A stretch of DNA of 64,000 nucleotides from Acinetobacter rongchengensis (GTDB lineage: Bacteria; Pseudomonadota; Gammaproteobacteria; Pseudomonadales; Moraxellaceae), in assembly GCF_003611475.1 (NCBI RefSeq), contig NZ_RAXT01000004.1, forward strand, positions 62,001 to 126,000, given 5' to 3'. The notes under the pieces are model-generated. The model made no database searches and was not told where the DNA came from. It saw only the letters and a list, made by a program, of their open reading frames with translations. The first letter of the stretch is position 1, and every line of letters begins with the position of its first letter. The position numbers and the translations under genes are program-made. Shown piece by piece: positions 41,252-56,104 of the stretch.

Positions 41252-41327
41252 GGGTCGTTAGCTCAGCTGGTAGAGCAGCGGACTTTTAATCCGTTGGTCC
41301 CGCGTTCGAATCGCGGACGACCCACCA
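41252..41327 (+). tRNA. tRNA-Lys (anticodon TTT), copy 1
   Basis: 76 bases with encoded CCA. Acceptor GGGTCGT pairs with ACGACCC; D arm GCTC/GAGC; anticodon arm GCGGA-CTTTTAA-TCCGT with anticodon TTT; T arm CCGCG-TTCGAAT-CGCGG. Confidence 0.98.
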
Positions 41328-41346
41328 CTTATTTTGATTCCTTGAT

Positions 41347-41422
41347 GGGTCGTTAGCTCAGCTGGTAGAGCAGCGGACTTTTAATCCGTTGGTCCCGCGT
41401 TCGAATCGCGGACGACCCACCA
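41347..41422 (+). tRNA. tRNA-Lys (anticodon TTT), copy 2
   Basis: Identical in sequence to copy 1 and 19 bases downstream of it, so processed from the same precursor. Confidence 0.98.
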
Positions 41423-41523
41423 TCTCTTTGTAAAATCTAATTTTACATACCTGCTCAGGTCGAATGTTTTAAGAAAACCCTTTTCTAAAAGCTTCAACGA
41501 ATCTCTTTCGTACACCTCGCTCA

Positions 41524-41599
41524 GGGTCGTTAGCTCAGCTGGTAGAGCAGCGGACTTTTAATCCGTTGGTCCCGCGTTCGAATCGCGGACGACCCACCA
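41524..41599 (+). tRNA. tRNA-Lys (anticodon TTT), copy 3
   Basis: Identical to copies 1 and 2. A 101-base spacer separates it from copy 2 and contains a perfect 8-bp hairpin (TGTAAAAT/ATTTTACA, 41429-41447). Confidence 0.98.
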
Positions 41600-42018
41600 T
41601 TAATTTTAAAACCCTTTCTACATATCATATTGTGACTATAATTAATTCACATCTTTAAATGCTTTGAATTAGATCAAACATCAATTCTAGATCATTCGCT
41701 CGTTGTCGTTCTTTTTTCCACGCTCAAGATGTACATCCAATTTTAGATGCAATTACAGTAATTACACCCAAATAAAAAGATAGCCCTTTTTAAACTCAAT
41801 GACGAAGTGTGCATCTCTTGGTTTGATTTCAGGTATGTATCTTCATTTTTTATCGCTGCATCCTTTCAAGAAAGTACTTTCTAATCATCTCGGAAGTTCA
41901 GTGAAAAATTTAATCTTTGATTCCCATAATTTTATTCAATGAGTTGTCTTTAGTATCTATTTTCACATTCTGTTCACAGCATGCTGCCTAAAGTATAAAT
42001 ATAAACTTAATACGGACA
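41600..42018. other. Intergenic region between tRNA-Lys array and lipid cluster
   Basis: About 420 bases with no gene. Near its right end lies the TTCACA direct repeat and a TATAAA, giving the promoter of the SnoaL-like lipoprotein. No clear tRNA terminator was found. Confidence 0.45.
41962..41978 (+). promoter_or_regulatory. Candidate response-regulator box, plus-strand operon
   Basis: TTCACA (41962-41967), five bases, TTCACA (41973-41978): a direct repeat with 11-bp period, the typical layout for OmpR/PhoP-type regulators. A TATAAA (41994-41999) follows. Matching boxes precede the desaturase and lipocalin genes of the same cluster. Confidence 0.6.
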
Positions 42019-42024
42019 GTGATC

Positions 42025-42597
42025 ATGAGACACGTAAAAACAATAATAGTAGCAGCCTTGTCTTTACCGCTGCTATTGTTAGCAGGATGTAAAAGTATTC
42101 CCAGTTATTCATCCGATTATGCAAAAGCGAGAACCAATATCCAAGGTATTGAGCTGGATGAGGCAAAAGCATTGGATATTGGTCACCGCTTTACTTCAGC
42201 CTTTAATACATTAGGAACACCCGCATTTGTTGAAAGCGCTGGAGCGCTGTATGCCGATCAACTTTTTATTAATGATACCTTGACTCAATTTTCATCGCGC
42301 AAAAATTTAATTGAGCATTTTCAAGGCATGAACAAACGGGTCAGTAACGTCAGTGTCAAACTAATAAATGCATCTTACCATTTGGACTCTGCCTATGTGC
42401 ATTGGCATATGACTTATGACTTTAAGATGTTCGGCATAACTCGAAGCATGAATTCTTATGGCATTAGTGAAATAAAGCTCGATGCAAACAATAAGATTAT
42501 TTTTCAACAAGACTTTTGGGACCCTGCGAATGGTCTATACCGTTCTTTACCTTATGTAGGAGGTGCTTATTCATGGGTATTACCTTTCAAAAATTAG
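42025..42597 (+). CDS. SnoaL/NTF2-like lipoprotein
   Basis: A 190-residue predicted lipoprotein (lipobox L-L-A-G-C, Cys about residue 22 from ATG 42025; a GTG at 42019 also opens the frame). The mature part has the nuclear-transport-factor-2 layout: 'LDIGHRFTSAFNTLG', a middle 'LIEHFQGMNKRVSNVSVKL' and 'VHWHMTYDF'. The end is 'QDFWDPANGLYRSLPYVGGA', strongly like the NTF2 proteins in ChrR-type light-stress clusters. It starts the plus-strand operon and overlaps the next gene by 25 bases. Ligand unknown; attachment to the outer membrane is inferred. Confidence 0.75.
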   Translation: MRHVKTIIVAALSLPLLLLAGCKSIPSYSSDYAKARTNIQGIELDEAKALDIGHRFTSAFNTLGTPAFVESAGALYADQLFINDTLTQFSSRKNLIEHFQGMNKRVSNVSVKLINASYHLDSAYVHWHMTYDFKMFGITRSMNSYGISEIKLDANNKIIFQQDFWDPANGLYRSLPYVGGAYSWVLPFKN

Positions 42598-43073
42598 CAA
42601 TAAGCACTGCTCTGCTCATACTCGGGAGCATCACTTCATGGGCGCAGGCACAAACATTAAATAAATGTGGTCATGGACCGCTGATGGTAGGTCAAAAACA
42701 GGTGGGCGTTGCCAGTTATTATGCTCAGAATTGTGCCCAGCGATGGCAAGACCAGAATATTCAGATGGATTTTTCTTATACACAAAATATTCCAGAGTGG
42801 GCATTTAAACGTGCTGCCACGCATCTGCTCAAACGCAATGTCAAAGACTCTCAAATAGTGACTATCTTTAATCCAATCACAGATTTATATCGTCCAGTCA
42901 AAACAGGTGATCTATACCGATTAAAATATATACATGCGACACAAGCACTAAGCCTATCTCTAAACCAGCAAATCTTAGGGCAGCTTCAACACCCGCTTGC
43001 TCAACAATATTTTAATATATGGCTTGGTCCTCAGCCATTTAATGCTAAATTGAAACAGCAATTATTAAATTAG
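42573..43073 (+). CDS. Chalcone-isomerase-like periplasmic protein
   Basis: A 166-residue secreted protein: signal peptide with 'LLILGSITSWAQAQ' and probable cleavage after AQA. The C-terminal 'YFNIWLGPQPFNAKLKQQLL' and the 'MDFSYTQNIPEWAFKRA' segment fit the bacterial chalcone-isomerase-like domain, a fatty-acid-binding fold without proven enzyme activity. ATG 42573 has a perfect GGAGGT site eight bases upstream, which decides the start against the longer open frame. It lies inside the end of the lipoprotein gene and just before the response regulator. Confidence 0.7.
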   Translation: MGITFQKLAISTALLILGSITSWAQAQTLNKCGHGPLMVGQKQVGVASYYAQNCAQRWQDQNIQMDFSYTQNIPEWAFKRAATHLLKRNVKDSQIVTIFNPITDLYRPVKTGDLYRLKYIHATQALSLSLNQQILGQLQHPLAQQYFNIWLGPQPFNAKLKQQLLN

Positions 43074-43085
43074 TATCCTTAAGCT

Positions 43086-43772
43086 ATGTCCAAACATTTT
43101 ATTCTAATGGTTGAAGACCATTATGAACTGGCTTCTACCTTATGCGAGTTTCTAGAAGAGCATGACTTTGTGGTGGATCATGCTCGGAATCTGAATGCTG
43201 CCCGCCAGCTACTCAAACAGCAACGGTATCATATTTTACTTTTAGATATTAACTTGCCAGATGGTTCAGGCTATGAACTGTGTGAATGGCTACGCAATGA
43301 AGCAGGCTTGGATCTGCCAGTACTGATGCTGACGGCTCGGGATACACTTGACGATAAACTCAAAGGTTTTCATTCGGGCACAGACGATTACTTAGTCAAG
43401 CCCTTTGACTTTAACGAGCTGGTGATGCGGATCAAAGCCTTGATCAAACGTTCATTAGGTGAAGTATCTAACAATCGCCTGCAAATTCATGATCTTATTT
43501 TAGATCCAACCAGACAGCAACTGACCCGAGCTGGACAAATCATTGAATTACCTCCAATTCAATTCAAGCTACTGAAACTGCTGATGCGTCATTCACCTAA
43601 AGTCCTGACCAAACAGGAAATCATGATGGAACTTTGGGGAGATGAGGAGCCAGAAAGCGATGCTTTACGCAGCCATATCTATAATCTACGTAAGTTGGTT
43701 GATAAACCCTTTCAACAAAAACTAATTCATACCATATCTGGCATCGGTTTAAAGATTGCTTTAGAAGCCTAG
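43086..43772 (+). CDS. OmpR-family response regulator
   Basis: A 228-residue regulator. Receiver domain: acidic pair Glu10/Asp11, phospho-acceptor Asp54 in 'LLLDINLPDGSG', Thr83 and Lys105 in 'YLVKPFDF'. C-terminal winged helix (about 130-225) with 'LPPIQFKLLKLLMRHSPKV' and 'DALRSHIYNLRKLVD'. The cognate kinase is the converging gene 43790-45112. Its likely targets are the cluster promoters carrying TTCACA direct repeats, including its own operon. Confidence 0.93.
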   Translation: MSKHFILMVEDHYELASTLCEFLEEHDFVVDHARNLNAARQLLKQQRYHILLLDINLPDGSGYELCEWLRNEAGLDLPVLMLTARDTLDDKLKGFHSGTDDYLVKPFDFNELVMRIKALIKRSLGEVSNNRLQIHDLILDPTRQQLTRAGQIIELPPIQFKLLKLLMRHSPKVLTKQEIMMELWGDEEPESDALRSHIYNLRKLVDKPFQQKLIHTISGIGLKIALEA

Positions 43773-43789
43773 TCTTTTAAAGCTGAGTC

Positions 43790-45112
43790 TTAATTTAAAT
43801 ACACCACTACAATCAGCCCAGTGGTCATTTTAAGATCAACATCCTGATGGGTAGTGAGATAATACTGCCGGTCAAATAGTTCCACCCGCCAACTAAGTTG
43901 TTTGCATAGCTTCTGTACCAATTGTAGACCAATACCATGTCCTTTAATCTCCAGTTGCAACCGCTGGCAGGACAGTTCCTGAACTTTGGTGTTATTCGGC
44001 AACGGAATACCGACCCCATTGTCGGCAATCAGCACTTTATTTTTTTGTAGAATGATATCAATTTCTGTGCCTTGAGAATAATTCAGTGCATTACGCAGAA
44101 TATTGTCAAACACCATTTTGGTCATAGATGGATAAAGTTGACGTGGCTGTTCATCTAGAATTTTTTGCAGATCAATCTGCATGCCTTTGTTATGACTAAC
44201 ACGATCTAAGTCGTGAACGAGTTCATCCAATAACTGTGACAACATGGTCGGTTCAGCAGTTAAAGTATTGGTTGTATTACGTGCAATAGCCAACAAGGTA
44301 TCGACCAGCAGTTGCATGTCATCAATGGTGTTATGTAGGCGGCTAAATGACTTGTTGTCACCATAACGGGCCTGACACAATTGTACATTACCTTTTAAAA
44401 TCGTCAGAGGCGTACGCAGCTCATGGCTAACATCTCCAGTAAATTCACGTTCACGCTGAATAAACTCACTTAACACTTGATGATATTTTTCTAAGGCCTG
44501 CTTAAGATATTCTGCTTCTAGATTGGAATCGGTTCGAATATCCTGAAACGGCGATGTTTGATTTTTCTGATGTTCCCAGTCAATATGCTCCAGTGCATTG
44601 GCTAGGCGGGTAATCGGAGAAAAGTAGCGCCGAGCACGACGGTTCCACCACCATAGCACACTATACAGTACAAATAGACTGACCATCAGCGGTGCTAGAC
44701 CAAACAACCAAACCAATTTATTGACATTACTTTCGCCAAATACTAACAGGACATGCTGTCCATCTTTATCACCATAAACAGTCATGCGTTCCTTGCCATC
44801 GACAAAATGTCGATTTACCCCTTGCTCAAGCCGCATGTGTCGAAATTGGGCTGGTGGTACATCATTCCAGCGGTATCCATACAGGTTTTTAGTATCAGGT
44901 AGTTCTGCGGCTGGATTACGTTCTAGCCGCTGCCAGTAATGTGACATTTCCTGTTCCAACGCCGTTCTGAGCAAGGAACCCTTGATTACCCAAGCACTAC
45001 AGGCGATCCCGATCACCACAGACAGGGCAATAAAACCGATTTGCAGCCAGTAGTAGCGGTTAAACACTTCGCCTAGAGGATGATCGCGTTTGTCCCTAAA
45101 TAGCCTTAACAT
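43790..45112 (-). CDS. Sensor histidine kinase
   Basis: About 440 residues from ATG 45112, which has GGGGA upstream; a TTG at 45151 opens the frame. Two membrane segments (about residues 23-45 and 133-155 from the ATG) flank a periplasmic domain of about 90 residues. A HAMP-like linker is followed by the H box 'REFTGDVSHELRTPLT' (His about 230), N box 'VFDNILRNALNYS', and G boxes 'IADNGVGIP' and 'GHGIGLQLV'. It is the last gene of the minus-strand lipid operon and converges with its response regulator. The sensed signal is unknown. Confidence 0.93.
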   Translation of the reverse strand: MLRLFRDKRDHPLGEVFNRYYWLQIGFIALSVVIGIACSAWVIKGSLLRTALEQEMSHYWQRLERNPAAELPDTKNLYGYRWNDVPPAQFRHMRLEQGVNRHFVDGKERMTVYGDKDGQHVLLVFGESNVNKLVWLFGLAPLMVSLFVLYSVLWWWNRRARRYFSPITRLANALEHIDWEHQKNQTSPFQDIRTDSNLEAEYLKQALEKYHQVLSEFIQREREFTGDVSHELRTPLTILKGNVQLCQARYGDNKSFSRLHNTIDDMQLLVDTLLAIARNTTNTLTAEPTMLSQLLDELVHDLDRVSHNKGMQIDLQKILDEQPRQLYPSMTKMVFDNILRNALNYSQGTEIDIILQKNKVLIADNGVGIPLPNNTKVQELSCQRLQLEIKGHGIGLQLVQKLCKQLSWRVELFDRQYYLTTHQDVDLKMTTGLIVVVYLN

Positions 45113-45151
45113 TGCTATATTCCCCGCTGACCCATCAGATGCATCGTTCAA

Positions 45152-46201
45152 TTATATGGCTTTTTTCTTAAACAGAAAGTGCCCGATCACCCACTCACGT
45201 CCATGGTCATAACCAAACAGCTCCGCACAAGCCATGAAGAAAATCCGCCAGCGCTGCCACCAAATTGCAGCATCTGCGCCATAGGTTTGTTCAAACAAGG
45301 GCTGTAACTCAGCCTTTCTTTGGTCCATATTCACCAACCAAGCATTTGCGGTGCGTTCATACTGGGTGCCGTCCCATTGCCAGTGCTGTTCTAACTGCAA
45401 ATGTTGCTGAAAATGTAGGAAAGTTGAGGCTGCAGGCATTAAACCACCACTAAAAAAATATCTCGACATCCAGTCAAATTCATTTTTTACTTCAAAGGGG
45501 TAATGCAGGAAACGATGACAGAAAATATGACACCACAGCAAGCCATCCGCTTTGAGCCAAATACTGATATTTTCAAATAGTTTTTGATAGTTACGTACGT
45601 GTTCAAACATTTCGACTGAAACCACACGGTCAAACGAAGCAGGTTCCAGTTGCAGTACATTGACGTCGCAGGTGATCACCGTCAGGTTATTCAATTTCTT
45701 CAGATGAGCCTGTTCCTGAATATACTGGCGTTGGGTTGAAGAATTTGATACCACCGTAATACGAGCCATTGGATAATGCTCGGCCATATACAGACTGAGA
45801 GATCCCCAACCACAGCCAATTTCCAAAATATCTTGCCCATCTTTCAGTTGCGCTCGCTGGCAATAGCAGGCCAAAGCAGCTTCTTCCGCTTGATCTAGCG
45901 TATTATCGGCATGTTCAAAAAGACTAGCGCTATATTTTAGGCGCTTGCCTAGCACTGCCTGAAAGAATACAGTTGGCAGTTCATAGTGCTGCTCATTGGC
46001 TTTATCTGTCTCGATGGCAATCTCGCTGTTTTTCAGCATCTGCAGCACATCCATATAGCGTTGGGTAGCCAATGCTGGATCAAAACGTCCTTCTTGTAAC
46101 AGACGTTTTTTGCTTAAGTTGCGAATGCCAGCTCGAATCACTGGGTCGGGCAATTTGCCACTTTCAATCAATTTTAAAGATTGTTGAATCATAAAGTCCA
46201 T
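45152..46201 (-). CDS. CFA/coclaurine-methyltransferase-like SAM methyltransferase
   Basis: A 349-residue SAM-dependent methyltransferase from ATG 46201 (site AGGT upstream; the frame opens at a GTG at 46228 inside the previous gene). 'HYELPTVFFQAVLGKRLKYS' and 'DILEIGCGWGSLSLYMAEHY' are the substrate and SAM motifs of the cyclopropane-fatty-acid synthase superfamily, here closest to the branch that includes coclaurine N-methyltransferase. It differs from the true CFA synthase in the same operon and may methylate a modified lipid or another molecule. Its product is unknown. Confidence 0.85.
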   Translation of the reverse strand: MDFMIQQSLKLIESGKLPDPVIRAGIRNLSKKRLLQEGRFDPALATQRYMDVLQMLKNSEIAIETDKANEQHYELPTVFFQAVLGKRLKYSASLFEHADNTLDQAEEAALACYCQRAQLKDGQDILEIGCGWGSLSLYMAEHYPMARITVVSNSSTQRQYIQEQAHLKKLNNLTVITCDVNVLQLEPASFDRVVSVEMFEHVRNYQKLFENISIWLKADGLLWCHIFCHRFLHYPFEVKNEFDWMSRYFFSGGLMPAASTFLHFQQHLQLEQHWQWDGTQYERTANAWLVNMDQRKAELQPLFEQTYGADAAIWWQRWRIFFMACAELFGYDHGREWVIGHFLFKKKAI

Positions 46202-46209
46202 GTATTTAC

Positions 46210-46989
46210 CTACTCTTTGGGTGGCCACGGAATAAACATCGGAGTTCGTCGTTGATAGTCTTTATAGTTGTCACCACGATGTGCCAACGCCTGTTGTTCA
46301 CTAAAGGGAATTCCAGTGATGTAGTATAGAAACAGCCACATCAGTAGCGGATAGATCCATAAACTGTATAATCCTGCCGCTAAACCGAGGATCGGATAGG
46401 CAAACCAATGTAGCCATTCAAAAAAATAATTCGGATGACGTGAATATTTCCACAATCCTCGATTCAGAGTTTTGCCCTTGTTCTGTGGATTCAGTTTGAA
46501 ACGATAAAGTTGCTGATCGGCAGTACTCTCTCCAATCAGTGACAATGCCATAATGATAGCTGCAACCAATACGGTATAAGGGGTCCAATCATTCCATTGT
46601 TGCGTCGGAATACTCAGCAGTTTTAACATCGGGTAGGAAAAAAGTGCAACCAACCCAGCCTGAAACATGAAAAAAGCCAGAAAACCGAGATGCTGATAAC
46701 CTCCCATGGCCCGACGCATATTGGCATAGCGAGTGTCTTCATGCGTTTCATTGACATAACGACGAAGTAAATGCCAAGTTAAGCGTAAAAACCAGATCCC
46801 ACTCGCGATTCCTAAAAACATGCGCACCATGAGTGGAGCAGTTCCCATAACCCATGCTGCAATCATCACATTTAGCGCAATACTGAAACTCCAAGCGACA
46901 TCCACCAGACCCGCTCTGCGGTTATAAGTGACCAATAACCAGCTACAAAACATGATAAAGATATTCAGCACAAGTAAATTCAGTAGCAT
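46210..46989 (-). CDS. DUF1295 membrane protein (steroid-reductase-like)
   Basis: A 259-residue inner-membrane protein with six or seven membrane segments. The C-terminal 'LNRGLWKYSRHPNYFFEWLH' is the signature of DUF1295/steroid 5-alpha-reductase-like and isoprenylcysteine-methyltransferase-like enzymes. It may reduce or methylate a lipid-linked substrate. Part of the minus-strand operon, 26 bases after the CFA synthase gene and eight before the second methyltransferase. Confidence 0.88.
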   Translation of the reverse strand: MLLNLLVLNIFIMFCSWLLVTYNRRAGLVDVAWSFSIALNVMIAAWVMGTAPLMVRMFLGIASGIWFLRLTWHLLRRYVNETHEDTRYANMRRAMGGYQHLGFLAFFMFQAGLVALFSYPMLKLLSIPTQQWNDWTPYTVLVAAIIMALSLIGESTADQQLYRFKLNPQNKGKTLNRGLWKYSRHPNYFFEWLHWFAYPILGLAAGLYSLWIYPLLMWLFLYYITGIPFSEQQALAHRGDNYKDYQRRTPMFIPWPPKE

Positions 46990-47014
46990 GTCAGTTCCCC
47001 TGTTTTATCTCAGC

Positions 47015-48220
47015 TCAATAAGCACTCGCTTCGAACAGTAGATGTACATCACTGATCACACCTTCGCTGAAACCACCTTCGCAATAACACAGATAAAAAT
47101 CCCACATGCGGATAAACTGCTCATCAAAGCCGAGTTGTATGACTTGATCACGCTGTTCTAGAAATCGTTGACGCCAGTAATGTAAGGTTTGTGCATAACT
47201 CTGGCCAATATCTTCTAAATGCTTAAGACGCAATTTTTGCTCAGAAGCCACTTGTGTCATGACACTGATACAAGGAATAAAACTGCCTGGGAAGATATAG
47301 CGCTTGATGTAATCCACTGTATTCAGAGCTTTAACATAGCGTGCATCTTCAATGGTGATCGCCTGAATCAGCGCTAGACCATTCGGTTTCAGCAGCTCAC
47401 GGCATTTACGAAAATAGGTGGGTAAATACTGCTCTCCTACCGCTTCAATCATTTCAATTGACACCAATTTGTCGTATTTACCTTCCAACAAACGATAATC
47501 CTTCAGTTGGACAATAATACGGTGTGACAGTCCAGCTGCGGCGACCCGAGCCACGGCTTCATCATACTGTGCCTTGGAAATAGTGATGGTAGTAACCTTA
47601 CAGCCATACTGCTGCGCAGCATAAATAGCAAAACCACCCCAACCACTGCCAATTTCGACTAAATGATCCATCGGTTTTAGCTTAAGTTTCTGACAAATCA
47701 GTTCTTTTTTATAATCGGAAGCCTGTTCTAAACTCATATTTGGTTCTTTAAATACTGCGCTGGAATACATCATGCTAGAATCCAGAAACAGCTTAAAAAA
47801 ATCATTGCTCAAGTCATAATGCTCAGCAATATTCTGACGACTACCATCAATCGAGTTCTTACGGGATTTATACCAAGCTTTTAATACAAATTGGCTGGCT
47901 TTGGCCACTACATTTTGATTCATTCGATCTAACACATCGCGATTACGTGCCAGAATACAAACGACATTAACTAGATCTTCACTGCTCCAGTAACCACGAA
48001 TAAACCCTTCTGCTGCTCCCAATACACCATTACGAAACATAAGATTGATAAGGCGCTCGTCATGAACCTGTATCACTGCCTGTAAATCACTATAGTTTTC
48101 CCCGACTACACCGTTCCAGACGCCTTTAAATATCAGCCGACCATGACGCAATTTCAGAAAATGACGTAGTGCTATTGGCAGTGTATTATGTTCTTCCATC
48201 AATAGTGTTTTCATAGTCAT
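47015..48220 (-). CDS. Cyclopropane-fatty-acyl-phospholipid synthase
   Basis: A 401-residue CFA synthase-type methyltransferase: 'NIAEHYDLSNDFFKLFLDSS', 'MMYSSAVF' and the SAM loop 'VEIGSGWGGFAIYAAQQYG', then 'EMIEAVGEQY' and 'YIFPGSFIP'. It adds a methylene or methyl group from SAM to double bonds of membrane phospholipids, and in furan-fatty-acid-type pathways related enzymes add a methyl group. Its start overlaps the DUF1365 stop by four bases (ATGA), showing translational coupling. Confidence 0.9.
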   Translation of the reverse strand: MTMKTLLMEEHNTLPIALRHFLKLRHGRLIFKGVWNGVVGENYSDLQAVIQVHDERLINLMFRNGVLGAAEGFIRGYWSSEDLVNVVCILARNRDVLDRMNQNVVAKASQFVLKAWYKSRKNSIDGSRQNIAEHYDLSNDFFKLFLDSSMMYSSAVFKEPNMSLEQASDYKKELICQKLKLKPMDHLVEIGSGWGGFAIYAAQQYGCKVTTITISKAQYDEAVARVAAAGLSHRIIVQLKDYRLLEGKYDKLVSIEMIEAVGEQYLPTYFRKCRELLKPNGLALIQAITIEDARYVKALNTVDYIKRYIFPGSFIPCISVMTQVASEQKLRLKHLEDIGQSYAQTLHYWRQRFLEQRDQVIQLGFDEQFIRMWDFYLCYCEGGFSEGVISDVHLLFEASAY

Positions 48221-49011
48221 GTCTTTCCTTTTACTTTTTTAGGATGCGGATAAAACGGAATTTTCTTTTTCCATAAACGCCAAGCATTTAGATAAATTCC
48301 AGTGACCATCCTGAAGGGTTCAAGAACTTTCTGCACAGCATAACGATACTGCTGTGAAGGAACTGTGATTGCCTGCAGGGAAAATGTTAGGGTAGCATCA
48401 AATTGCAACACACCTTTTTCAAACAGTTGCATATGAATCACGTTCAACCGATCGGAGAAACTGAACCGCCAGCGGTAATCTAGTGCCATCGGCATGAATG
48501 GTGAAACATGAAATTCTTTTTTAAAATCAAATTGGTATGTCTGATAAGACTTATATTGGGGTATATTCTCACTCTCACGGCAGTCATGAATGTAGACTTG
48601 ACGTTCATTCCACGGTGTATTTGTAATTTCACTCAACACAAATATCAATTGATCTGTGCAATCAAAGATCAGATAGAAAACCACAGAGTTGAAGCGAAAA
48701 CCTAATGTACGTGGCAAAGCTAGTACGCGTATAGAACTAGTAGGCGATAGCAAATAACTTTCCCGTTTGATTAACAAACGTGATAGCTTCTGCCGAATTG
48801 AACCACATTCCATAATCAGGAAATCACGCTCATCCAGCGTCAAAAGATTCCAACTACTCACAGACCAAAAGCATGATTTTTGGGTAAAAGTTGTCAGCTG
48901 GTCTGGATCAAACCATAAATAACTCAGATGGGTTTCAAATGTATGTGATTTAGGGAGGTAGCGACGATGGCGAATCTTGGCAGAAGCGATAGCGAGTGGA
49001 TATACTTGCAT
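48217..49011 (-). CDS. DUF1365 family protein
   Basis: A 264-residue DUF1365 protein. Recognisable parts: 'RHRRYLPKSHTFETHLSYLW' near the N-terminus, 'LPRTLGFRFNSVVFYLIF', 'EITNTPWNERQVY' and 'KEFHVSPFMPMALDYRWRF'. The family is nearly always next to an FAD-dependent oxidoreductase and a CFA-type methyltransferase, as here, and is thought to take part in the same lipid modification, with no defined activity. It overlaps the CFA synthase gene by four bases. Confidence 0.92.
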   Translation of the reverse strand: MQVYPLAIASAKIRHRRYLPKSHTFETHLSYLWFDPDQLTTFTQKSCFWSVSSWNLLTLDERDFLIMECGSIRQKLSRLLIKRESYLLSPTSSIRVLALPRTLGFRFNSVVFYLIFDCTDQLIFVLSEITNTPWNERQVYIHDCRESENIPQYKSYQTYQFDFKKEFHVSPFMPMALDYRWRFSFSDRLNVIHMQLFEKGVLQFDATLTFSLQAITVPSQQYRYAVQKVLEPFRMVTGIYLNAWRLWKKKIPFYPHPKKVKGKT

Positions 49012-49020
49012 AATACTCTC

Positions 49021-50304
49021 CTACGCTGCTTTGTCAGTCTGTTTTAATAACTGCTCAACGACCCATGAAGCACTCCGTGCTCCATCCTCATGAAAACCCC
49101 AGCCCCAGTAAGCGCCACAGTATGAGGTCCTATTTTGTCCATTAACTTCGGTCCAGCGTTGTTGTGCTTCAATCGCAGGGGCATCAAATACTGGATGACG
49201 GTAATGACGTTCTATCCAAACCTTTTTCGGGTCTAGGGCAAAATTAGGATTCAGTGTGGCAAAGATTTGGGTTTTACAGTTCAGGTTTTGTAACTGATTC
49301 ATCCAGTAACTAAAACCGTAATGCATGCCATTCTGCTGGAATGGCGTTAATTCGGTTACTTGGCCAGGTGTTACATGCACATGCCAGCTGGCCCACTGTC
49401 GTCTGGATTTAGGCATGATGTTGGTATCAGAATGGACCACCATGTGGTTATCCTGATAACGGAATTTTCCAAGCACATCCAACTCATGTGCTGAAGGGTC
49501 TTTCAGCAACTTCAGACTATCATCTGCATGGCTAGCAAAAATAACCCAATCAAAATGTTCTGTGCCCTGCTCAGTTTCAATCATGACTTCATTTGCACTC
49601 CGCGAGACATGCACAACACTCATGTGACGAAACGTAATCGTCGTTTGGGACTGAATAGCACTGACATATTGAGCTGATCCACCCTTAACCGTGAGCCACA
49701 ACGGCCGGTCTTTCAGTTGTAACATACGATGATGTTGGAAAAAGCTCACCACAAATTTATAGGGAATTTGTCCAGCTTGTTCCACAGGACAGGACCAGAG
49801 TGCCCCGCACATCGGATAAAGATGTTCATGACGGAAGGCTTGGGAATAGCCATGTTGATTCAGATATGCATCAATACTGAGTTGTGCATCAATCTGTTCT
49901 ACATCCAAATCTTTATTGGCAGCATAGAAACGGAATAGATCTGAAAGCATCACGCGAAAATCAGCCTTAAAAAAGTTTTGCGGCCGAAACAAGAGCGAGA
50001 ATTTTTTTGAAGGATTGTACTGTAAACCAGTGACCTGATTGTTCACCGAGAAACCCATATCACTGCTTTGCGATGGAATCCCGAGTTCTTGCAGCATCGC
50101 ACAGAACAGTGGATAGTTATGCTGATTAAACACAATAAAACCACTGTCCACTGCAACCTGTTCACCATCTATATTGAGTTGATGAGTGTCTGTATGGCCA
50201 CCGAAGTGATTATTCTTTTCGAAGACGGTGATTTCATGCACTTTACTGAGTTTCCAAGCCGCATACAGACCAGAAATACCTGAACCAATAATCGCAATTT
50301 TCAT
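49021..50304 (-). CDS. FAD-dependent oxidoreductase of the DUF1365/CFA cluster
   Basis: A 427-residue flavoprotein with an N-terminal dinucleotide fold 'IAIIGSGISGLYAAWKLS' followed by 'VFEKNNHFGGHTDT', as in amine-oxidase-like NAD(P)/FAD proteins. In the middle is 'YPMCGALWSCP', and at the C-terminus 'YCGAYWGWGFHEDGARSASW', the typical end for the DUF1365-associated subgroup. It probably oxidises or desaturates a methylated acyl chain. It overlaps the desaturase gene by four bases. Confidence 0.9.
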   Translation of the reverse strand: MKIAIIGSGISGLYAAWKLSKVHEITVFEKNNHFGGHTDTHQLNIDGEQVAVDSGFIVFNQHNYPLFCAMLQELGIPSQSSDMGFSVNNQVTGLQYNPSKKFSLLFRPQNFFKADFRVMLSDLFRFYAANKDLDVEQIDAQLSIDAYLNQHGYSQAFRHEHLYPMCGALWSCPVEQAGQIPYKFVVSFFQHHRMLQLKDRPLWLTVKGGSAQYVSAIQSQTTITFRHMSVVHVSRSANEVMIETEQGTEHFDWVIFASHADDSLKLLKDPSAHELDVLGKFRYQDNHMVVHSDTNIMPKSRRQWASWHVHVTPGQVTELTPFQQNGMHYGFSYWMNQLQNLNCKTQIFATLNPNFALDPKKVWIERHYRHPVFDAPAIEAQQRWTEVNGQNRTSYCGAYWGWGFHEDGARSASWVVEQLLKQTDKAA

Positions 50305-51287
50305 GGTGATTCCTTCGAATGAATAGTTGGGGTGCCTGTCTTGACTACTTTTCTCTGTTTTCGAGTTTGTGCAATTTTACTGACATCATAGACCCGTGCA
50401 GGAATAGGTTTTAACCCCCAGACTAGGCCTATCCATGACATCAATTTCAAAATGTAAAAAGTGACATCAACCTGCCACCAGTAAAAACCCTGCTGTGCAC
50501 TTCCCGCATAATAATGATGATTATTATGCCAACCTTCACCTAGTGTAATAATGGATAGAAAGAAATTGTTGCGGCTTTGATCTTCAGTGTCAAAATCACG
50601 ACTGCCATAATGATGCGCCAGTGAGTTAATACACAAAGTGGCATGGATCAATAATACGGTGGATACGACAAATCCCCAGACCAGTAATTGCAGGCCAGAA
50701 GTTCCTAGTTGCGGCCAAGTTATTGCCAGCCATTCGCCTAGCACATAAATCCCACCCGCAGTCAGCAGCACCACAATTAGACTAAATCGGTCTAGCCAGA
50801 TTAATTCTGGATATTTCAGCCAGTCTTTGATGACTTCTTTTCGCGTAGCAAAATTATATTCATTTAAAAACCAACCGATATGGCTGTACCAAAAACCATG
50901 CGTCGAGGAATGTGGATCTTGTAGTGTGTCGGTATAGCGGTGGTGATAACGGTGATGTGCCGCCCACCATAACGGGCCACGCTGTGCACTCATCGTACCC
51001 AGTAATACGAACAGGAACTGTACTGGGCGTGAGGTTTCAAAGGTTTTATGCGACAAGTAGCGATGAAAAAAAGCCGTGATGGAAAACATGCGGAGTAAGT
51101 AGAAGGCCAGCATAAAGCCAAGTGCAAACCACGACACGCCAACCCAAAATACTGCCAAACAAGCCAGATGCAATAGAATAAAGGGAAAAATCCTCAACCA
51201 CTGAATCTTGCAATTTTCAGCATTCAAGCTGGTTGGCTGTGTAGTAGTAGACCAGCTGTCTATCCATCTCATTAGACTTTTCAACAT
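50301..51287 (-). CDS. Acyl-CoA/acyl-lipid fatty acid desaturase
   Basis: A 328-residue integral membrane desaturase with the three histidine boxes: 'HRYLSHK', 'HHRYHH' and 'HNNHH', and several membrane segments. It belongs to the stearoyl-CoA desaturase-like type, di-iron, inner membrane, introducing a double bond (often delta-9) in fatty acids. Making unsaturated chains would supply the substrate for the CFA-type enzymes in the same operon. It is the first gene of the minus-strand operon, with a TTCACA-type direct repeat upstream. Confidence 0.92.
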   Translation of the reverse strand: MLKSLMRWIDSWSTTTQPTSLNAENCKIQWLRIFPFILLHLACLAVFWVGVSWFALGFMLAFYLLRMFSITAFFHRYLSHKTFETSRPVQFLFVLLGTMSAQRGPLWWAAHHRYHHRYTDTLQDPHSSTHGFWYSHIGWFLNEYNFATRKEVIKDWLKYPELIWLDRFSLIVVLLTAGGIYVLGEWLAITWPQLGTSGLQLLVWGFVVSTVLLIHATLCINSLAHHYGSRDFDTEDQSRNNFFLSIITLGEGWHNNHHYYAGSAQQGFYWWQVDVTFYILKLMSWIGLVWGLKPIPARVYDVSKIAQTRKQRKVVKTGTPTIHSKESP

Positions 51288-51347
51288 GGACTTATCCTAA
51301 TTTAATGCTACGGTCTTTATTCTATTTGATGAGTCTAATCAGTTAGA

Positions 51348-51364
51348 TATGAATTTTATGTGAA
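51348..51364 (-). promoter_or_regulatory. Candidate response-regulator box, desaturase operon
   Basis: On the minus strand TTCACA (51364-51359), five bases, TTCATA (51353-51348): the same 11-bp direct repeat as upstream of the lipocalin and the SnoaL-like gene, about 60 bases before the desaturase start. Confidence 0.55.
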
Positions 51365-51370
51365 GTAAAG

Positions 51371-51408
51371 AAAAAAAGCCGAACTATTGAGAGCTTCATC
51401 AGTTCGGC
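51371..51408 (-). terminator. Terminator of the lipocalin gene
   Basis: GCCGAACT (51378-51385) pairs with AGTTCGGC (51401-51408); seven T follow on the minus strand. It separates lipocalin from the desaturase operon. Confidence 0.82.
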
Positions 51409-51422
51409 AAAACGGTAGCAAA

Positions 51423-51971
51423 TTAATGCGGTAATTTGATCAATTTTGTCACGTCATAACCATAATGTTTCGCAGTATCGAGATATGACTGGTAGGTGGC
51501 TTCATCCAACTTCGGTTCACGTGACAAAATCCACAGGTATTTATTACTTGGTCCACCCACCAGTGCCACTTTATATTCAGGGTCTACTCGTAATACCCAG
51601 TAATGACCTTTAGTAAAAGGTATCCATCTTAAGCCTTTAGGCAAAAAGCTCACCTTTAATTTACTATTTCCCTTATTTTGCGCATAAGCAACGCCTTCAG
51701 AGCTAATCATCTCACCACTCGCAGTTCGACAACGATTCAACACATTCACGGTCTGATCGTCATTAAGACGATATTCTGCACTGATATTGGCGATACATTT
51801 ACGCTGAAAATACATCGGTAAATGAGCGATTTCATACCATTTTCCAGCATATTTTTGAATATCAATTTGATCTACAGCCTGAGGGGCAACTGTTTCTGCC
51901 CGAGCAGTAATCGTTAAACTGATCGTAGCTAGCGCCGCAACTACAAAAAATGACTTGAATAGCATCTTCAT
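51423..51971 (-). CDS. Lipocalin (Blc-like)
   Basis: A 182-residue secreted lipocalin: signal peptide ending 'TITARA', then the family GxW motif in 'KYAGKWYEIAHLP', and 'YWVLRVDPEYKVALVGGPSN' and 'WILSREPKLDE' as in bacterial lipocalin Blc. Unlike E. coli Blc there is no lipobox, so it is probably soluble in the periplasm. Lipocalins bind fatty acids or lysophospholipids and help membrane upkeep. Monocistronic, with its own box and terminator. Part of the lipid cluster by position and shared box. Confidence 0.9.
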   Translation of the reverse strand: MKMLFKSFFVVAALATISLTITARAETVAPQAVDQIDIQKYAGKWYEIAHLPMYFQRKCIANISAEYRLNDDQTVNVLNRCRTASGEMISSEGVAYAQNKGNSKLKVSFLPKGLRWIPFTKGHYWVLRVDPEYKVALVGGPSNKYLWILSREPKLDEATYQSYLDTAKHYGYDVTKLIKLPH

Positions 51972-52017
51972 TTTTAAGCCTTATTTTTGATTCCACCATC
52001 AATATAAACTATGTAGA

Positions 52018-52034
52018 TGTGAATAAAGCGTGAA
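52018..52034 (-). promoter_or_regulatory. Candidate response-regulator box, lipocalin
   Basis: On the minus strand TTCACG (52034-52029), five bases, TTCACA (52023-52018), followed 11 bases later by a TATATT. The spacing from box to -10 fits PhoP-like activation. Confidence 0.6.
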
Positions 52035-52322
52035 TATTGAAGAATAAAATTCAATTGATAATTACCAACAACTTTCCCTGTTAAGTGATGTTGCTCCACA
52101 GTAGATCAGTGAATAATAGCTGGCAGTTTATACCGCTTCGGGCAATTACATTCGTAAGGTCGAATTACTACAAATACTATAGTGACGATATCAAAATACA
52201 CACTGCATCAGATAAATATACTTTAACAGTCTAAACTGATATTTAATCATCTAGCATGCGGCGGTATTTGGTATTCATCCACATAATAGGTATGCATTGA
52301 TTGATTGACTACTCGATAAACT

Positions 52323-52349
52323 TAAAAATTGAGAGAAGATCATCTCTCA
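52323..52349 (-). terminator. Probable terminator of the DUF2805 gene
   Basis: TGAGAGA/TCTCTCA (52330-52336 with 52343-52349) with ATTTTT after it on the minus strand; it lies just left of the convergent DUF2256 gene. Confidence 0.55.
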
Positions 52350-52389
52350 TACGTAACAACATCTCATTCGGATTGATGAGTGATCAACC

Positions 52390-52533
52390 ATGAAAAAGCA
52401 ACATCTTCCTAAAAAAATCTGTATACACTGCTTACGCCCATTTAACTGGCGTAAGAAATGGCAACGCTGTTGGGAGGAAGTCAAATACTGCTCTGAACGA
52501 TGCCGATGTGAATCTAAACGGCACCCAAAGTAA
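52390..52533 (+). CDS. DUF2256 small zinc-finger-like protein
   Basis: A 47-residue protein with Cys at positions 11, 14, 34 and 38: '[20 protein letters not shown]', then 'RKKW' and 'YCSERCR'. This is the DUF2256 pattern, a CxxC...CxxxC mini-domain likely to bind Zn. DUF2256 genes are typically found with DUF2805/TIGR03643 and cryptochrome/photolyase genes. It converges with the DUF2805 gene, whose stop is five bases away. Too short for common gene-calling limits, but the full family pattern is present. Confidence 0.85.
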
Positions 52534-52538
52534 AGCAC

Positions 52539-52841
52539 TTAAAAATGCTTGTACTGCCTAGAACAATATGCCCGAATCACATCAGGTGAACGCAACTGTA
52601 AGTGTTTGGTTTTTCGACCAGTAACTCGTTCACGCCACATTTTAAAACTGGATGCTTTCAAATTTTTTCGCATCAAACGGATAACTGACGTTTCATTTAA
52701 ACCATACTCAGATTGAATGGCTTCAAAAGGGGTTCGATCTTCCCAAGCCATTTCGATAATTCTGGATAAGTCTTCTTCAGCAAATTGATACACGCTATTC
52801 TCTTTTTTAAAAATGATAAAAGCTGATTTGTGGTTCATCAA
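52539..52841 (-). CDS. DUF2805 / TIGR03643 family protein
   Basis: A 100-residue protein matching the TIGR03643/DUF2805 family nearly throughout: 'EDLSRIIEMAWEDRTPFEAI', 'YGLNETSVIRLMRKNLKASS' and 'FKMWRERVTGRKTKH'. It looks like a small HTH protein. Found in many bacteria next to DUF2256 and cryptochrome/photolyase or light-stress genes; function unknown. The ATG at 52838 is an alternative start one codon later. Confidence 0.9.
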   Translation of the reverse strand: MMNHKSAFIIFKKENSVYQFAEEDLSRIIEMAWEDRTPFEAIQSEYGLNETSVIRLMRKNLKASSFKMWRERVTGRKTKHLQLRSPDVIRAYCSRQYKHF

Positions 52842-53371
52842 GCTTCAATACAGTTGATCAAATTATATTTATAGCTTGACCCGATTTTGATTCGATGAAA
52901 AGTATAAAAATACAACCATGAATTTTTTGTGATTTTTCCCGATTTTAACTGATTATATTTCAAATCATCGTACTAACGAGCTAAGCATATCTGACGTTTT
53001 TTAGGTATACATACCCAATATATTTGTACTGAAGCACTTAAAAATAGTCGTAAATTCAATATTTAAAAATAATCAAACCTTTGATTGAAATATACTTTTT
53101 AAATTTAATTAATTAAAAGATATATACACTTTTCTAGAATTAGCTTTGGACGGACACTGTGCCTATTATTCTGACTAAGATTATTTATTCGCCAAACATA
53201 TCTTTTGCTACATAAAAATGATTTGAGTCATTCGTTTCACCTATGCATACCCCACCAAAAGAACTAGATCCCCTCCTTCTATTTTCTTAGTTAACTCGCC
53301 AATCTGATGAATATTTTCTTCACATACAAAGCATTACCCTACATTTAAGAAACTAACACAAAGTTAGGGAA
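52842..53371. other. AT-rich intergenic region upstream of the nitrate block
   Basis: About 530 bases without a gene. It ends in the transporter promoter region, including a 35-base spaced motif (53256-53290) also found before narG. Nothing else recognised. Confidence 0.45.
53256..53290 (+). promoter_or_regulatory. Shared nitrate-block upstream element, transporter copy
   Basis: CAAAAGAACTAG-N5-CTCC-N9-CTTAG, about 90-120 bases before the transporter start. The same pattern with the same spacings lies upstream of narG (56105-56139). It probably binds a common activator. Confidence 0.6.
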
Positions 53372-53377
53372 ATGCTT

Positions 53378-54619
53378 ATGAAAACAGAGAGTTCCAAAGC
53401 CAACAGTATTTTGATCTCAAGTACCTTGTCTTTTACCGTATGTTTTATGGTGTGGATGGTCTTTGCCGTTCTCGGTATCCCCATCAAAGAAAAGCTAGGT
53501 CTAAGTCAGACTGAGTTTGGTATTTTAGCTGCAATGCCGGTGTTATCAGGCTCATTGTCTCGAGTACCCTTGGGGATTTGGACGGATCGTTATGGCGGTC
53601 GCATCGTATTTTTTTGTTTAATGTTGTTTTGTATCCCAGCGATTTTCCTATTGCAGTATGCTCATAGTTATTGGCAATTTCTTGCATTAGGGTTATGGAT
53701 GGGGCTGATTGGTGGCTCATTTTCAGTCGGGACACCTTATATTGCTCGTTGGTTTGATCGCCAACATCAGGGCTTTGCCATGGGGATCTTCGGCGCAGGA
53801 AATGCAGGCAGTGCATTAAATAAGTTTATCGCACCTGCATTGATTCTGACCTTCGGCTGGACGATGGTTCCCACCGTTTACACCTTGATTTTATTAGGTG
53901 CAGCGATTGTTTTCTGGTTTACCACGTATACAGACCCTGCGCATCTTGTTCCCTCCAATGTCAAACTATCCGATCAGCTTCGTTTGATGAAAAATCCTGC
54001 CGTACTGCGTTATAGCCAATATTACTCAGTGGTCTTTGGTGGTTATGTCGGACTGGCGCTCTGGATGGTGAACTATTACGTTCAAGAGTATGGTTTTGAT
54101 CTTACGCATGCTGCGTTTCTTGCAGCCTGTTTCTCCCTACCTGGTGGTGTCTTGCGTGCTTTAGGTGGCTGGTTATCTGATAAATATGGTGCGTACAAAG
54201 TGACTTGGGCAGTCATGTGGGTCTGCTGGGTTACGTTCTTTATCTTGTCCTATCCTCAGACGGCGATGGTCATTGAAACGGTCAGTGGTCCTATGCAGTT
54301 CAGCATTCATATCAATGCGACATTATTTACGTTCTTATTGTTCATCGTTGGTATTGCTATGGCGATTGGGAAAGCATCGGTCTTTAAATTTATTGCTGAT
54401 GATTTTCCAAATGATATTGGTGCGGTATCAGGTGTTGTTGGATTGGCTGGTGGTTTGGGTGGATTCTTGCTCCCGATTCTATTTGGGATGCTGGTTGACT
54501 TTACGGGAATCCGCTCAAGTGCGTTTATGCTGCTCTACGGCTGTGTTTGTGTCAGTTTGATCTGGATGCATTATTCATTCAAACCATTACAAAAAAAACA
54601 AATTCTTAATCAAGGTTAA
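53378..54619 (+). CDS. narK: Nitrate/nitrite MFS transporter, NarK type 1
   Basis: A 413-residue MFS transporter with 12 predicted membrane segments. The nitrate signatures of the NNP family are visible: 'GIFGAGNAGSALNKF' in TM5 and 'GAVSGVVGLAGGLGGFLLP' in TM11; 'RVPLGIWTDRYGGR' is the MFS loop 2-3 motif. ATG 53378 has AGGGA seven bases upstream and is preferred over ATG 53372. Type 1 NarK proteins are proton-nitrate symporters. It is the first gene of the two-transporter unit and is followed 10 bases later by the second transporter. Confidence 0.92.
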   Translation: MKTESSKANSILISSTLSFTVCFMVWMVFAVLGIPIKEKLGLSQTEFGILAAMPVLSGSLSRVPLGIWTDRYGGRIVFFCLMLFCIPAIFLLQYAHSYWQFLALGLWMGLIGGSFSVGTPYIARWFDRQHQGFAMGIFGAGNAGSALNKFIAPALILTFGWTMVPTVYTLILLGAAIVFWFTTYTDPAHLVPSNVKLSDQLRLMKNPAVLRYSQYYSVVFGGYVGLALWMVNYYVQEYGFDLTHAAFLAACFSLPGGVLRALGGWLSDKYGAYKVTWAVMWVCWVTFFILSYPQTAMVIETVSGPMQFSIHINATLFTFLLFIVGIAMAIGKASVFKFIADDFPNDIGAVSGVVGLAGGLGGFLLPILFGMLVDFTGIRSSAFMLLYGCVCVSLIWMHYSFKPLQKKQILNQG

Positions 54620-54629
54620 AGGTGTCATC

Positions 54630-56012
54630 ATGGCTAAAAATTTATCAGTTTGGCAACCTGAAAATGAACAATTCTGGAAGCAAACGGGTCGTGCAATTGC
54701 TCGGCGTAATCTCTGGATTTCTGTCCCTGCACTCCTTCTCGCCTTTGCTATTTGGCAAGTCTGGAGTGTATCCGTTGTAAAGTTACCCACCATTGGTTTT
54801 GAGTACAGTAAGAATCAACTCTTTTGGTTAGCTGCATTACCTGCACTGTCTGGTGCAACGTTAAGGATTTTCTATTCCTTCGTGGTGCCTATCTTTGGCG
54901 GGCGGCGCTGGACGGCGATTTCTACAGCGAGTCTTCTCATTCCTGCGATTGGGTTAGGATTTGCAGTACAAAATCCTGAGACAAGTTATACCACGATGGT
55001 CATTTTGGCACTCTTGTGTGGATTTGGTGGGGCAAACTTTAGTTCTTCCATGTCCAATATTAGCTTTTTCTTTCCAAAATCTGAAAAAGGGAATGCGTTG
55101 GGAATTAATGCTGGATTGGGAAATTTAGGGGTTTCGACTGTTCAGTTCGTGGTACCGATTGTCATTACGTTTGCACTGTTTGGTGCGATGGGTGGTGCAT
55201 CACAAACTGCGACATTACCTGATGGCTCAACACAACAAATTTGGCTGCAAAATGCAGGGTTTGTCTGGGTTCCTTTTATTATTTTAGCGACCTTATGTGC
55301 TTGGTTTGGAATGAATGATATTGATTCAGCCAAAGCATCCTTTAAAGATCAAGCGGTGATTTTTAAACGTAAACATAACTGGTTAATGTGCTGGTTGTAT
55401 ATTGGTACGTTTGGTTCTTTCATCGGTTTTTCTGCGGGTTTTGCTTTATTAACCAAGCAAGTGTTTCCTGAAATTGACCCGACAAAATATGCTTTTTTTG
55501 GTCCACTGATTGGTGCATTAATGCGTGTTGTTGGTGGATGGTTATCTGACCGCTTCTCTGCGTCCAAGGTCACACAGGCAAGTTTTCTGCTGATGATTAT
55601 TGCGGTGATTGGTGTGATTCATTTTATGCCTCAAGACGGTGTCGGTGGTTCATTCTCAGGATTCTTTGCCTGCTTTATGGTGTTGTTTGCAGCAACGGGT
55701 GTGGGTAATGCTTCAACATTTGCACAAGCACCACGTATTTTTGCTGCATTACACCGTAAACATGCTCAGGCGTATGGTTTATCCGAGGCTGAAGCGGATG
55801 GAAATGCAACAAAAGAGTCTGCCGCAGTTGTTGGTTTTATGGGGGCGATTGGTGCATATGGTGGTTTCTTTATTCCAAAAAGTTTTGGTACCTCGATTGA
55901 TATGACGGGCAGTGCCTACGCTGCACTGATTTGTTTTATCATCTTTTATGTGTGCTGTATTCTCATCAATTGGTGGTTTTATGCGCGCAAAAATGCCGAA
56001 GTACGGTGTTAA
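54630..56012 (+). CDS. Nitrate/nitrite MFS transporter, NarK type 2
   Basis: A 460-residue NNP-family transporter with 12 membrane segments and the nitrate signature 'NALGINAGLGNLGVSTVQF' in TM5 and 'ESAAVVGFMGAIGAYGGFFI' in TM11. Longer than its partner, with a soluble loop around residues 190-215. Type 2 NarK proteins exchange nitrate for nitrite across the inner membrane. The pairing of one type 1 and one type 2 carrier is typical of respiratory nitrate reduction. A strong terminator follows. Confidence 0.92.
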   Translation: MAKNLSVWQPENEQFWKQTGRAIARRNLWISVPALLLAFAIWQVWSVSVVKLPTIGFEYSKNQLFWLAALPALSGATLRIFYSFVVPIFGGRRWTAISTASLLIPAIGLGFAVQNPETSYTTMVILALLCGFGGANFSSSMSNISFFFPKSEKGNALGINAGLGNLGVSTVQFVVPIVITFALFGAMGGASQTATLPDGSTQQIWLQNAGFVWVPFIILATLCAWFGMNDIDSAKASFKDQAVIFKRKHNWLMCWLYIGTFGSFIGFSAGFALLTKQVFPEIDPTKYAFFGPLIGALMRVVGGWLSDRFSASKVTQASFLLMIIAVIGVIHFMPQDGVGGSFSGFFACFMVLFAATGVGNASTFAQAPRIFAALHRKHAQAYGLSEAEADGNATKESAAVVGFMGAIGAYGGFFIPKSFGTSIDMTGSAYAALICFIIFYVCCILINWWFYARKNAEVRC

Positions 56013-56070
56013 ATAATCGGAGACTATATTTTCATAACCCATTGAGAAATTAAAGTTTCATATTTCCAAC

Positions 56071-56104
56071 AAGCACTTTATGATATTGTAAAGTGCTTTT
56101 TTTT
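56071..56104 (+). terminator. Terminator of the nitrate transporter operon
   Basis: AGCACTTTA (56072-56080) pairs perfectly with TAAAGTGCT (56089-56097), followed by eight T. narG must therefore have its own promoter. Confidence 0.9.

Follow-up and report, generated by a model that had tools for sequence, protein, structure and literature searches.

In a 64,000-nucleotide stretch of the Acinetobacter rongchengensis genome (contig NZ_RAXT01000004.1, positions 62,001 to 126,000; hereafter the window), a cluster of lipid-related genes probably forms a fatty-acyl modification module under a dedicated two-component system (TCS), which would act through direct repeats of the form TTCAC-N6-TTCAY. 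The cluster consists of two convergent operons. The forward-strand operon contains genes for a SnoaL-like lipoprotein (snoaL), a chalcone-isomerase-like protein (chi) and a response regulator (RR). Facing it on the reverse strand is the lipid operon, in which genes for a desaturase, a flavin adenine dinucleotide (FAD)-dependent enzyme, a DUF1365 protein, a cyclopropane fatty acid (CFA)-type methyltransferase, a DUF1295 protein and a second methyltransferase (MT2) are followed by a sensor histidine kinase (HK). RR is the last gene of its operon, 12 bp 3' of chi, and HK is the last of the lipid operon, 39 bp 3' of MT2. The genes and the operator-like sites before them are as follows, in window coordinates:

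41962..41994, forward strand: operator/promoter-like site of snoaL-chi-RR (TTCAC-N6-TTCAC, then TAAAGT)
42025..42597, forward strand: SnoaL/NTF2-like lipoprotein (lipobox read in the sequence)
42573..43073, forward strand: chi, chalcone-isomerase-like periplasmic protein (PF16036, Chalcone_3)
43086..43772, forward strand: RR, OmpR/PhoB-type response regulator (PF00072, Response_reg, and PF00486, Trans_reg_C)
43790..45112, reverse strand: HK, membrane sensor histidine kinase (PF00512, HisKA, and PF02518, HATPase_c; family alignments)
45152..46216, reverse strand: MT2, S-adenosylmethionine methyltransferase (CMAS match in Pfam; closest PDB entries are plant coclaurine/pavine N-methyltransferases)
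46210..46989, reverse strand: DUF1295 membrane protein, steroid-reductase-like (PF06966)
47015..48214, reverse strand: CFA-type fatty-acyl methyltransferase, UfaM-like by context (PF02353, CMAS, 277 bits)
48217..49011, reverse strand: DUF1365 protein, UfaO-like by domain (PF07103)
49021..50304, reverse strand: FAD-dependent amine-oxidase-type enzyme, UfaD-like by domain (PF13450/PF01593)
50301..51287, reverse strand: membrane acyl desaturase, first gene of the lipid operon (PF00487)
51332..51364, reverse strand: operator/promoter-like site of the lipid operon (TTCAC-N6-TTCAT, then TAGACT)
51423..51971, reverse strand: lipocalin, Blc-like, its own transcription unit upstream of the lipid operon (PF08212, Lipocalin_2)
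52002..52034, reverse strand: operator/promoter-like site of the lipocalin gene (TTCAC-N6-TTCAC)

The genes named in a preliminary description of this DNA are all present with Pfam support, except that the SnoaL-like lipoprotein has no Pfam or NCBIfam match; its plasmid orthologues are annotated as NTF2 family. That description had also placed the TCS inside the cluster. Both RR and HK are indeed there, but they are split between the two facing operons rather than forming one unit.

The repeat has an 11-bp period, is followed 11 bp further on by a -10-like TANNNT element, and lies upstream of snoaL, the desaturase gene and the lipocalin gene. When these positions were compared across 21 loci plus the window, the repeat was exact in 20 of the 21 snoaL rows; of the 22 desaturase rows all but one (L048), and of the 13 lipocalin rows all but one (L044), had no more than one mismatch. 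The extended pattern (repeat and -10-like element) has seven matches with up to one mismatch in the window, against 0.22 expected, and four of the seven lie before cluster genes, a nearby DUF2805 gene included. At the scale of whole genomes, all 61 genomes of the genus with this HK contain at least two exact extended sites, with a mean of 3.3 (0.31 for a reversed-pattern control). The mean in 58 genus genomes lacking the HK is 0.38 (control 0.21), with 41 genomes having none and five having two.

Loci not used for motif discovery show the same association. The motif was fixed beforehand, and a site was sought between 150 bp upstream of a cluster gene and 60 bp inside it, a span chosen after a first look at the loci. 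A cluster gene has a site, exact or with a single mismatch, at all 15 lipid-linked TCS loci (exact at 11), as compared with two of the 44 MT2 loci without this TCS. One of the 15 (L052) is from the same family as the window host and 14 are not; five loci from the host's order without the MT2-linked set, and L120, were left out. One of the two exceptions, L068, has a contig end just upstream and comes from the same genus as the TCS-linked L078. The first look at the 44 loci had found four exact repeats in 717 kb.

The joint arrangement of TCS and lipid genes is nearly constant in the family. In a sample of 199 family genomes, 36 have an HK match with an E value no higher than 1e-30; 31 of them belong to the genus (host included), three to sister genera at 45-51% identity, and two are remote (G012 and G130) with HK loci lacking the cluster; L053 and L054, fetched for weak HK matches, also lack the arrangement. 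MT2 occurs in 36 genomes as well, namely 34 of the HK-bearing ones and two without an HK match, G001 and G029 (near MT2 in G001, DUF1295 is the only gene of the profiled set). HK and MT2 are separated by 34-152 bp in all 34 genomes with both. As far as the stretches reach, 22 loci (L031-L052) share the arrangement with single genes missing: the lipocalin gene is seen in 12 of the 22, chi was not found in L050-L052, and snoaL is absent from the cut-off L052 and from the L043 locus, where it has moved elsewhere and still has a site (L260).

Larger samples extend this picture. The HK is present in 61 of 119 genus genomes, with two copies on different contigs in G837, and in 23 of 244 genomes of the order. 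Ten loci were fetched from the 22 non-host HK genomes of the order sample; L105-L108 have MT2 operons with HK and RR convergent, and L111 has DUF1295, DUF2878, snoaL and photolyase genes. Among the matches listed in named genomes (80 loci from a scan that used only an H-box pattern and is no census), four are cluster-linked: Alloalcanivorax marinus L115, Acinetobacter sp. ANC 3781 L120, and two metagenome-assembled genomes, L116 and, with its HK frame broken, L128. HK homologues from Xanthomonas and Stenotrophomonas (L117-L119) have no lipid genes in their stretches. In a tree of 68 MT2 rows, where L052 (at a contig end) and L128 are treated as TCS-linked, the TCS label needs eight changes, at least six of them forced by well-supported branches, and so the linkage has been gained and lost repeatedly. 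As a separate observation, HK-RR relatives without the lipid operon are found in L109, L110 and L112-L114, and exact repeats lie at other places in the stretches of all of these but L114; the HK-RR family may therefore have other regulons.

We propose that HK detects a signal from the envelope with a periplasmic segment about 90 residues long and phosphorylates RR, which would then bind the 11-bp direct repeats at the -35 position, 11 bp upstream of the -10-like element. A -35 box is not needed where a regulator occupies that position, as PhoB does at pho boxes, and RR would activate snoaL-chi-RR, the lipid operon and the lipocalin gene in the same manner. Because RR and HK each end an operon carrying the site, the circuit should feed back positively. 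In relatives, the circuit also seems to reach genes for ribA, fadE and a TonB receptor, where sites are seen. In a structure model of HK, two long helices flank a small alpha/beta segment; with a mean predicted local distance difference test (pLDDT) score of 74.6 and a predicted template modeling (pTM) score of 0.44, the model was judged too weak. Among open-licence PMC papers, by title and start of abstract, no study was recognised on this TCS or on any TCS controlling this gene set, which says little about print at large.

The same gene set is found elsewhere under other regulators; it is that of the extracytoplasmic function (ECF) sigma factor/ChrR regulons, as the preliminary description had noted, and of the LitR regulons. 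MT2 is present in 50 of 369 genomes sampled from the class, and 48 non-host MT2 loci were fetched (G225 and G540 were left out). Six have this HK family (L055, L057, L058, L062, L078 and L095), 12 have a MerR-B12 (LitR-type) gene, six have ECF and/or ChrR genes, and 26 have none of these within the stretch (L070 and L095 are counted twice). These regulators were assigned with home-made profiles, and contig ends cut some of the stretches. The window cluster has no ECF sigma, ChrR or MerR-B12 gene by Pfam (MerR-B12 was not sought in the rest of the genome), and with the home-made profiles, built from few seeds, no ECF sigma or ChrR gene was found in the printed loci L031, L039 and L048-L052. In the host genome, the sole Cupin_7 match is a 168-residue protein, and no ECF gene could be recognised in the surrounding 6 kb; ECF genes were not searched for genome-wide. 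The earlier claim that a TCS stands in place of the sigma factor and ChrR agrees with the constant attachment of the TCS and the shared operator-like repeat, but it holds for the locus only.

Gene order is nearly the same in Stenotrophomonas maltophilia smlt2375-2367: acyl-CoA desaturase, FAD oxidoreductase, hypothetical protein, CfaS2, two inner-membrane hypothetical proteins, CfaS1 and lipocalin (PMC11832516). That operon differs from the window cluster in being controlled by rpoEc-chrR with no HK-RR in the operon, in starting with a gene for a periplasmic hypothetical protein, in having one more inner-membrane gene (probably DUF2878, by analogy), and in having the lipocalin gene last, whereas in the window it is a separate unit. 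The nine genes rise 165- to 697-fold on loss of ChrR and contribute to MD (probably menadione) tolerance of the ChrR-loss mutant (PMC11832516). The Ufa pathway of Rhodobacter sphaeroides and R. palustris shares the FAD enzyme, the DUF1365 protein and the CFA-type methylase with the cluster (RPA2569-2571 are consecutive) and is raised by ChrR loss in R. sphaeroides; the excerpted text mentions no PF00487-type desaturase or coclaurine N-methyltransferase-like enzyme (PMC7380195).

In the LitR (PplR/PmlR) regulon of Pseudomonas, phrB, a short-chain dehydrogenase/reductase gene, the FAD oxidoreductase gene and ufaM form one light-induced cluster, with cryB in another unit; the regulator is of the LitR/CarH family and works with a LOV photoreceptor, induction by light is strong, and ufaM of Pseudomonas mendocina is induced 25- to 33-fold (PMC9758184). 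Blue light induces the Vibrio cholerae CFA synthase VC1122, with control by the anti-sigma factor ChrR and a MerR protein (PMC5241685). Even in a eukaryote, the alga Chlamydomonas, CFA1, CFA2, a DUF1365 gene and a DUF1295 gene need the regulator SAK1 for singlet-oxygen induction, and another table names CFA2 a coclaurine N-methyltransferase (PMC4067076). A Pseudoalteromonas plasmid has largely the same genes in ECF/ChrR form, accompanied by genes for phrB, NTF2 and chalcone isomerase.

These parallels bear on the likely product. Rhodobacter synthesises methylated furan fatty acids with UfaM, UfaD and UfaO; UfaO contains DUF1365, and RSP1091 is UfaD (PMC7380195), an orthologue of which is annotated as a flavin-containing amine oxidase in another report (PMC5507510). 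By Pfam domain, the core of the ECF/ChrR regulon (FAD oxidoreductase, DUF1365 and CFA-type methylase) is present in the cluster. MT2 had been described as a second CFA-type methyltransferase, and it does have a CMAS match in Pfam, but over its full length it is nearer the plant coclaurine/pavine N-methyltransferases than CFA synthase. Its best PDB match is 6gkv (E 2.4e-72 over residues 10-351), versus E 2e-28 for 6bqc on the CFA synthase side, and an EMFEH motif in 64 of 68 MT2 rows corresponds to EMIEA or EMVEA in 49 of 49 CFA rows. By these comparisons, MT2 resembles plant coclaurine N-methyltransferase more than plain CFA synthase. In the 50 class genomes, this bacterial homologue of the plant enzymes is mostly located near lipid genes. 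By analogy with UfaM, UfaD and UfaO, the module probably yields methylated or furan fatty acids, which would protect membranes from peroxidation or repair them. Given those parallels, the inductions in other organisms and the likeness of MT2 to coclaurine N-methyltransferase, the most fitting overall reading of the module is that it manages oxidised or modified lipids.

A connection to light is suggested by the genes next to the lipocalin gene:

52129..52380, forward strand: decayed 3' end, all that is left of a cryptochrome/photolyase gene of the FeS type (PF04244), between the DUF2256 and lipocalin genes (tblastn match of 41.6% across 89 columns, E 3e-7; each of the three frames is broken by stops)
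52390..52533, forward strand: DUF2256 protein (PF10013)
52539..52838, reverse strand: DUF2805 protein (PF10985), convergent with DUF2256
52901..52933, reverse strand: weaker candidate operator-like site before DUF2805 (ATCAC-N6-TTCAT, then TATACT; one mismatch to the extended pattern)

No intact cryptochrome gene lies beside the window cluster. The Acinetobacter piscicola plasmid pYH12207-1 (L339) has genes for DUF2805 (TIGR03643), DUF2256, a cryptochrome/photolyase and nudC, followed by the lipid-HK cluster, and it matches the window at 82% over 41900-52034 and 77% over 52129-52810. The cryptochrome of this plasmid belongs to PF04244. Among solved structures, it is best matched by Rhodobacter cryptochrome B (3zxs) and PhrB (4dja); 7ykn is named FeS-BCP. 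A search for cryptochrome or photolyase genes near orthologous loci, as the preliminary description had proposed, turned up full-length matches beside the cluster in L048, L128 and L339 (and at the non-TCS loci L071 and L076), but only the remnant in the window and no exact site at 30 photolyase loci of the genus. The link of cryptochrome to the cluster is by synteny. A gene of the FeS-type cryptochrome kind has been reported in Acinetobacter sp. Ver3 (PMC4406064), a likeness by type rather than by computed identity. The DUF1365 gene is found on seven Acinetobacter plasmids at 78-81% identity; the two that were read further (L338 and L339) have the cluster, with five more plasmids, all 165-302 kb, having the DUF1365 gene. 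The gene table of A. haemolyticus p4 lists the cluster but no cryptochrome, the tables of both plasmids being incomplete and lacking RR.

Judging by the systems described above, light is one likely trigger. A regulon that includes the ordinary photolyase is not supported in the genus, however: a PF03441 photolyase is found in 112 of 119 genus genomes, with or without the cluster, and the exact repeat is present at none of 30 photolyase loci (17 from genomes with the HK and 13 from genomes without); nor is there a site at the photolyase locus of the host genome (L282, L303). One of the 30 loci, L270 from the HK-bearing genome G121, has a one-mismatch repeat with a -10-like element 91 bp before its photolyase gene, possibly a local recruitment into the regulon.

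Sites outside the core cluster point to a wider regulon. In 20 fetched stretches, with ribA, FadE, TonB and MipA identified by Pfam on one example each, the gene downstream of the site is ribA in L246, L252, L254, L256 and L264, a FadE-type acyl-CoA dehydrogenase gene in L247 and L249, a TonB receptor gene in L248 and L261, and a MipA protein gene in L258; in L251, L255 and L253 the sites precede less telling genes (small GTPase, malic-enzyme-like protein). Three or more RibA-domain matches occur in 26 of the 119 genus genomes, 25 of them with the HK, by a mechanical count that includes some fragments. An exact site precedes ribA at 15 of 17 loci from genomes with the HK versus one of 13 from genomes without, a contrast that is confounded, and arises in part, because the 30 best-scoring loci are largely extra ribA copies in the former and ordinary ribA in the latter. 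A flavin supply through ribA fits the FAD enzyme and the cryptochrome. One genome without an HK match (G861, L330) nevertheless has an extra ribA with an exact operator, suggestive of TCS loss or a contig gap.

Several results weigh against a dedicated TCS acting through these repeats. The sites in HK-bearing genomes are mostly in the cluster itself, with a mean of 2.1 within 12 kb of the HK in the 41 genomes whose sites are fully listed. Outside the cluster, the mean in these genomes is 1.15, with at least one site in 23 of 41, against 0.38 in genomes without the HK; this excess is smaller (p about 5e-4, relatedness not corrected). In L095, an exact site by a gene of the set precedes RR, while the lipid operon has a MerR-B12 gene as its neighbor. 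No RR was found within 20 kb in L057/L306. In the order, HK relatives in L109, L110, L112 and L114 are accompanied by none of the lipid genes, and L113 has just a weak methyltransferase match and a CFA-type match. The likeness to UfaM, UfaD and UfaO rests on domains and gene order, not on alignment to RSP2144, RSP1091 and RSP1090.

Another regulator could also act on the sites. CreB/BlrA recognise the cre/blr-tag TTCAC-N6-TTCAC (PMC3660660), which is the same operator as the cluster repeat, so the tag of the CreBC regulon is present in the cluster; the host genome has a CreB-CreC-CreD operon (L266, G000:C180:17500-25000) with an exact tag before creD. Since both the repeat and the regulator are present, CreB could bind the cluster sites too, and cross-talk between CreB and RR is likely in genomes carrying both. 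We nevertheless consider it improbable that the cluster is controlled mainly by CreBC, with the neighboring TCS a passenger or directed to other targets. The local RR is not CreB by the curated models: it scores 130.5 bits against a CreB cut-off of 273, HK scores 74 bits versus 356 for CreC, and the true CreB and CreC, at 297.6 and 574.4 bits, are elsewhere in the host genome. The targets differ as well. Of 24 TCS-bearing genomes checked, ten have a CreB over the cut-off and two score 272.7 and 234.5 bits, but 12 reach at most 226.1 bits, and the clusters of such genomes keep their sites; L031, L044, L055, L062 and L108 are examples where CreB is not clear. The sites, moreover, track the local HK across families. 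Less probable still is that the repeat is a promoter element with no tie to the TCS, or that it arises by coincidence in AT-rich upstream regions. Its promoter position and short core would allow for this, but reversed-pattern controls give 0.2-0.3 sites per genome against 3.3 in HK-bearing genomes, and the seven window matches and the scarcity of sites at non-TCS loci, given above, speak against it.

A different question is what the module is for. It might serve ordinary membrane-lipid homeostasis, responding to temperature or fatty-acid supply, with the TCS tuning desaturation and methylation rather than answering stress. The FadE and TonB receptor sites, with that of MipA, fit fatty-acid traffic, and the bare photolyase loci and the loss of the cryptochrome in the window are in keeping with it. 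We regard this as rather unlikely, as the gene set or its core is induced elsewhere by singlet oxygen, blue light or ChrR loss, with parts of it induced by singlet oxygen in Chlamydomonas, and full-length cryptochrome/photolyase matches lie beside the cluster in three loci. Oxidised- or modified-lipid management under the local TCS can be taken one step further, and here we are tentative, thinking the following possible but somewhat short of even odds. HK would be an envelope sensor of photo-oxidised or modified lipid, providing a third independent route, after sigmaE/ChrR and LitR, to a cross-kingdom singlet-oxygen lipid module that different lineages captured several times. RR would have settled on the operator of CreB, and Acinetobacter plasmids would spread the module as a light-damage island that also contains an FeS-type cryptochrome gene and a second ribA.

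The same lipid gene set is thus found wired to ECF/ChrR, to LitR, to SAK1 in an alga and, here, apparently to a TCS with an operator that can be read from sequence, which makes it a clear example of a conserved pathway whose regulator has been replaced. With a readable operator, the damage sensed and the lipid made become directly testable questions. The sharing of one operator by two different regulators, CreB and this RR, is also of interest for possible cross-talk.

The remaining observations concern the surroundings of the cluster. DUF2256 and DUF2805 had been described as lying alongside, and both are present, but they are not constant partners: among the 22 stretches L031-L052, DUF2805 is found in two and DUF2256 in one, and we rejected them as fixed members. 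At window positions 53372-59943, two major facilitator superfamily genes and a nitrate reductase alpha chain gene (PF14710, PF00384) adjoin the cluster. Just before the cluster, at 41252-41599, are three consecutive tRNA-Lys(TTT) genes, a possible integration spot.

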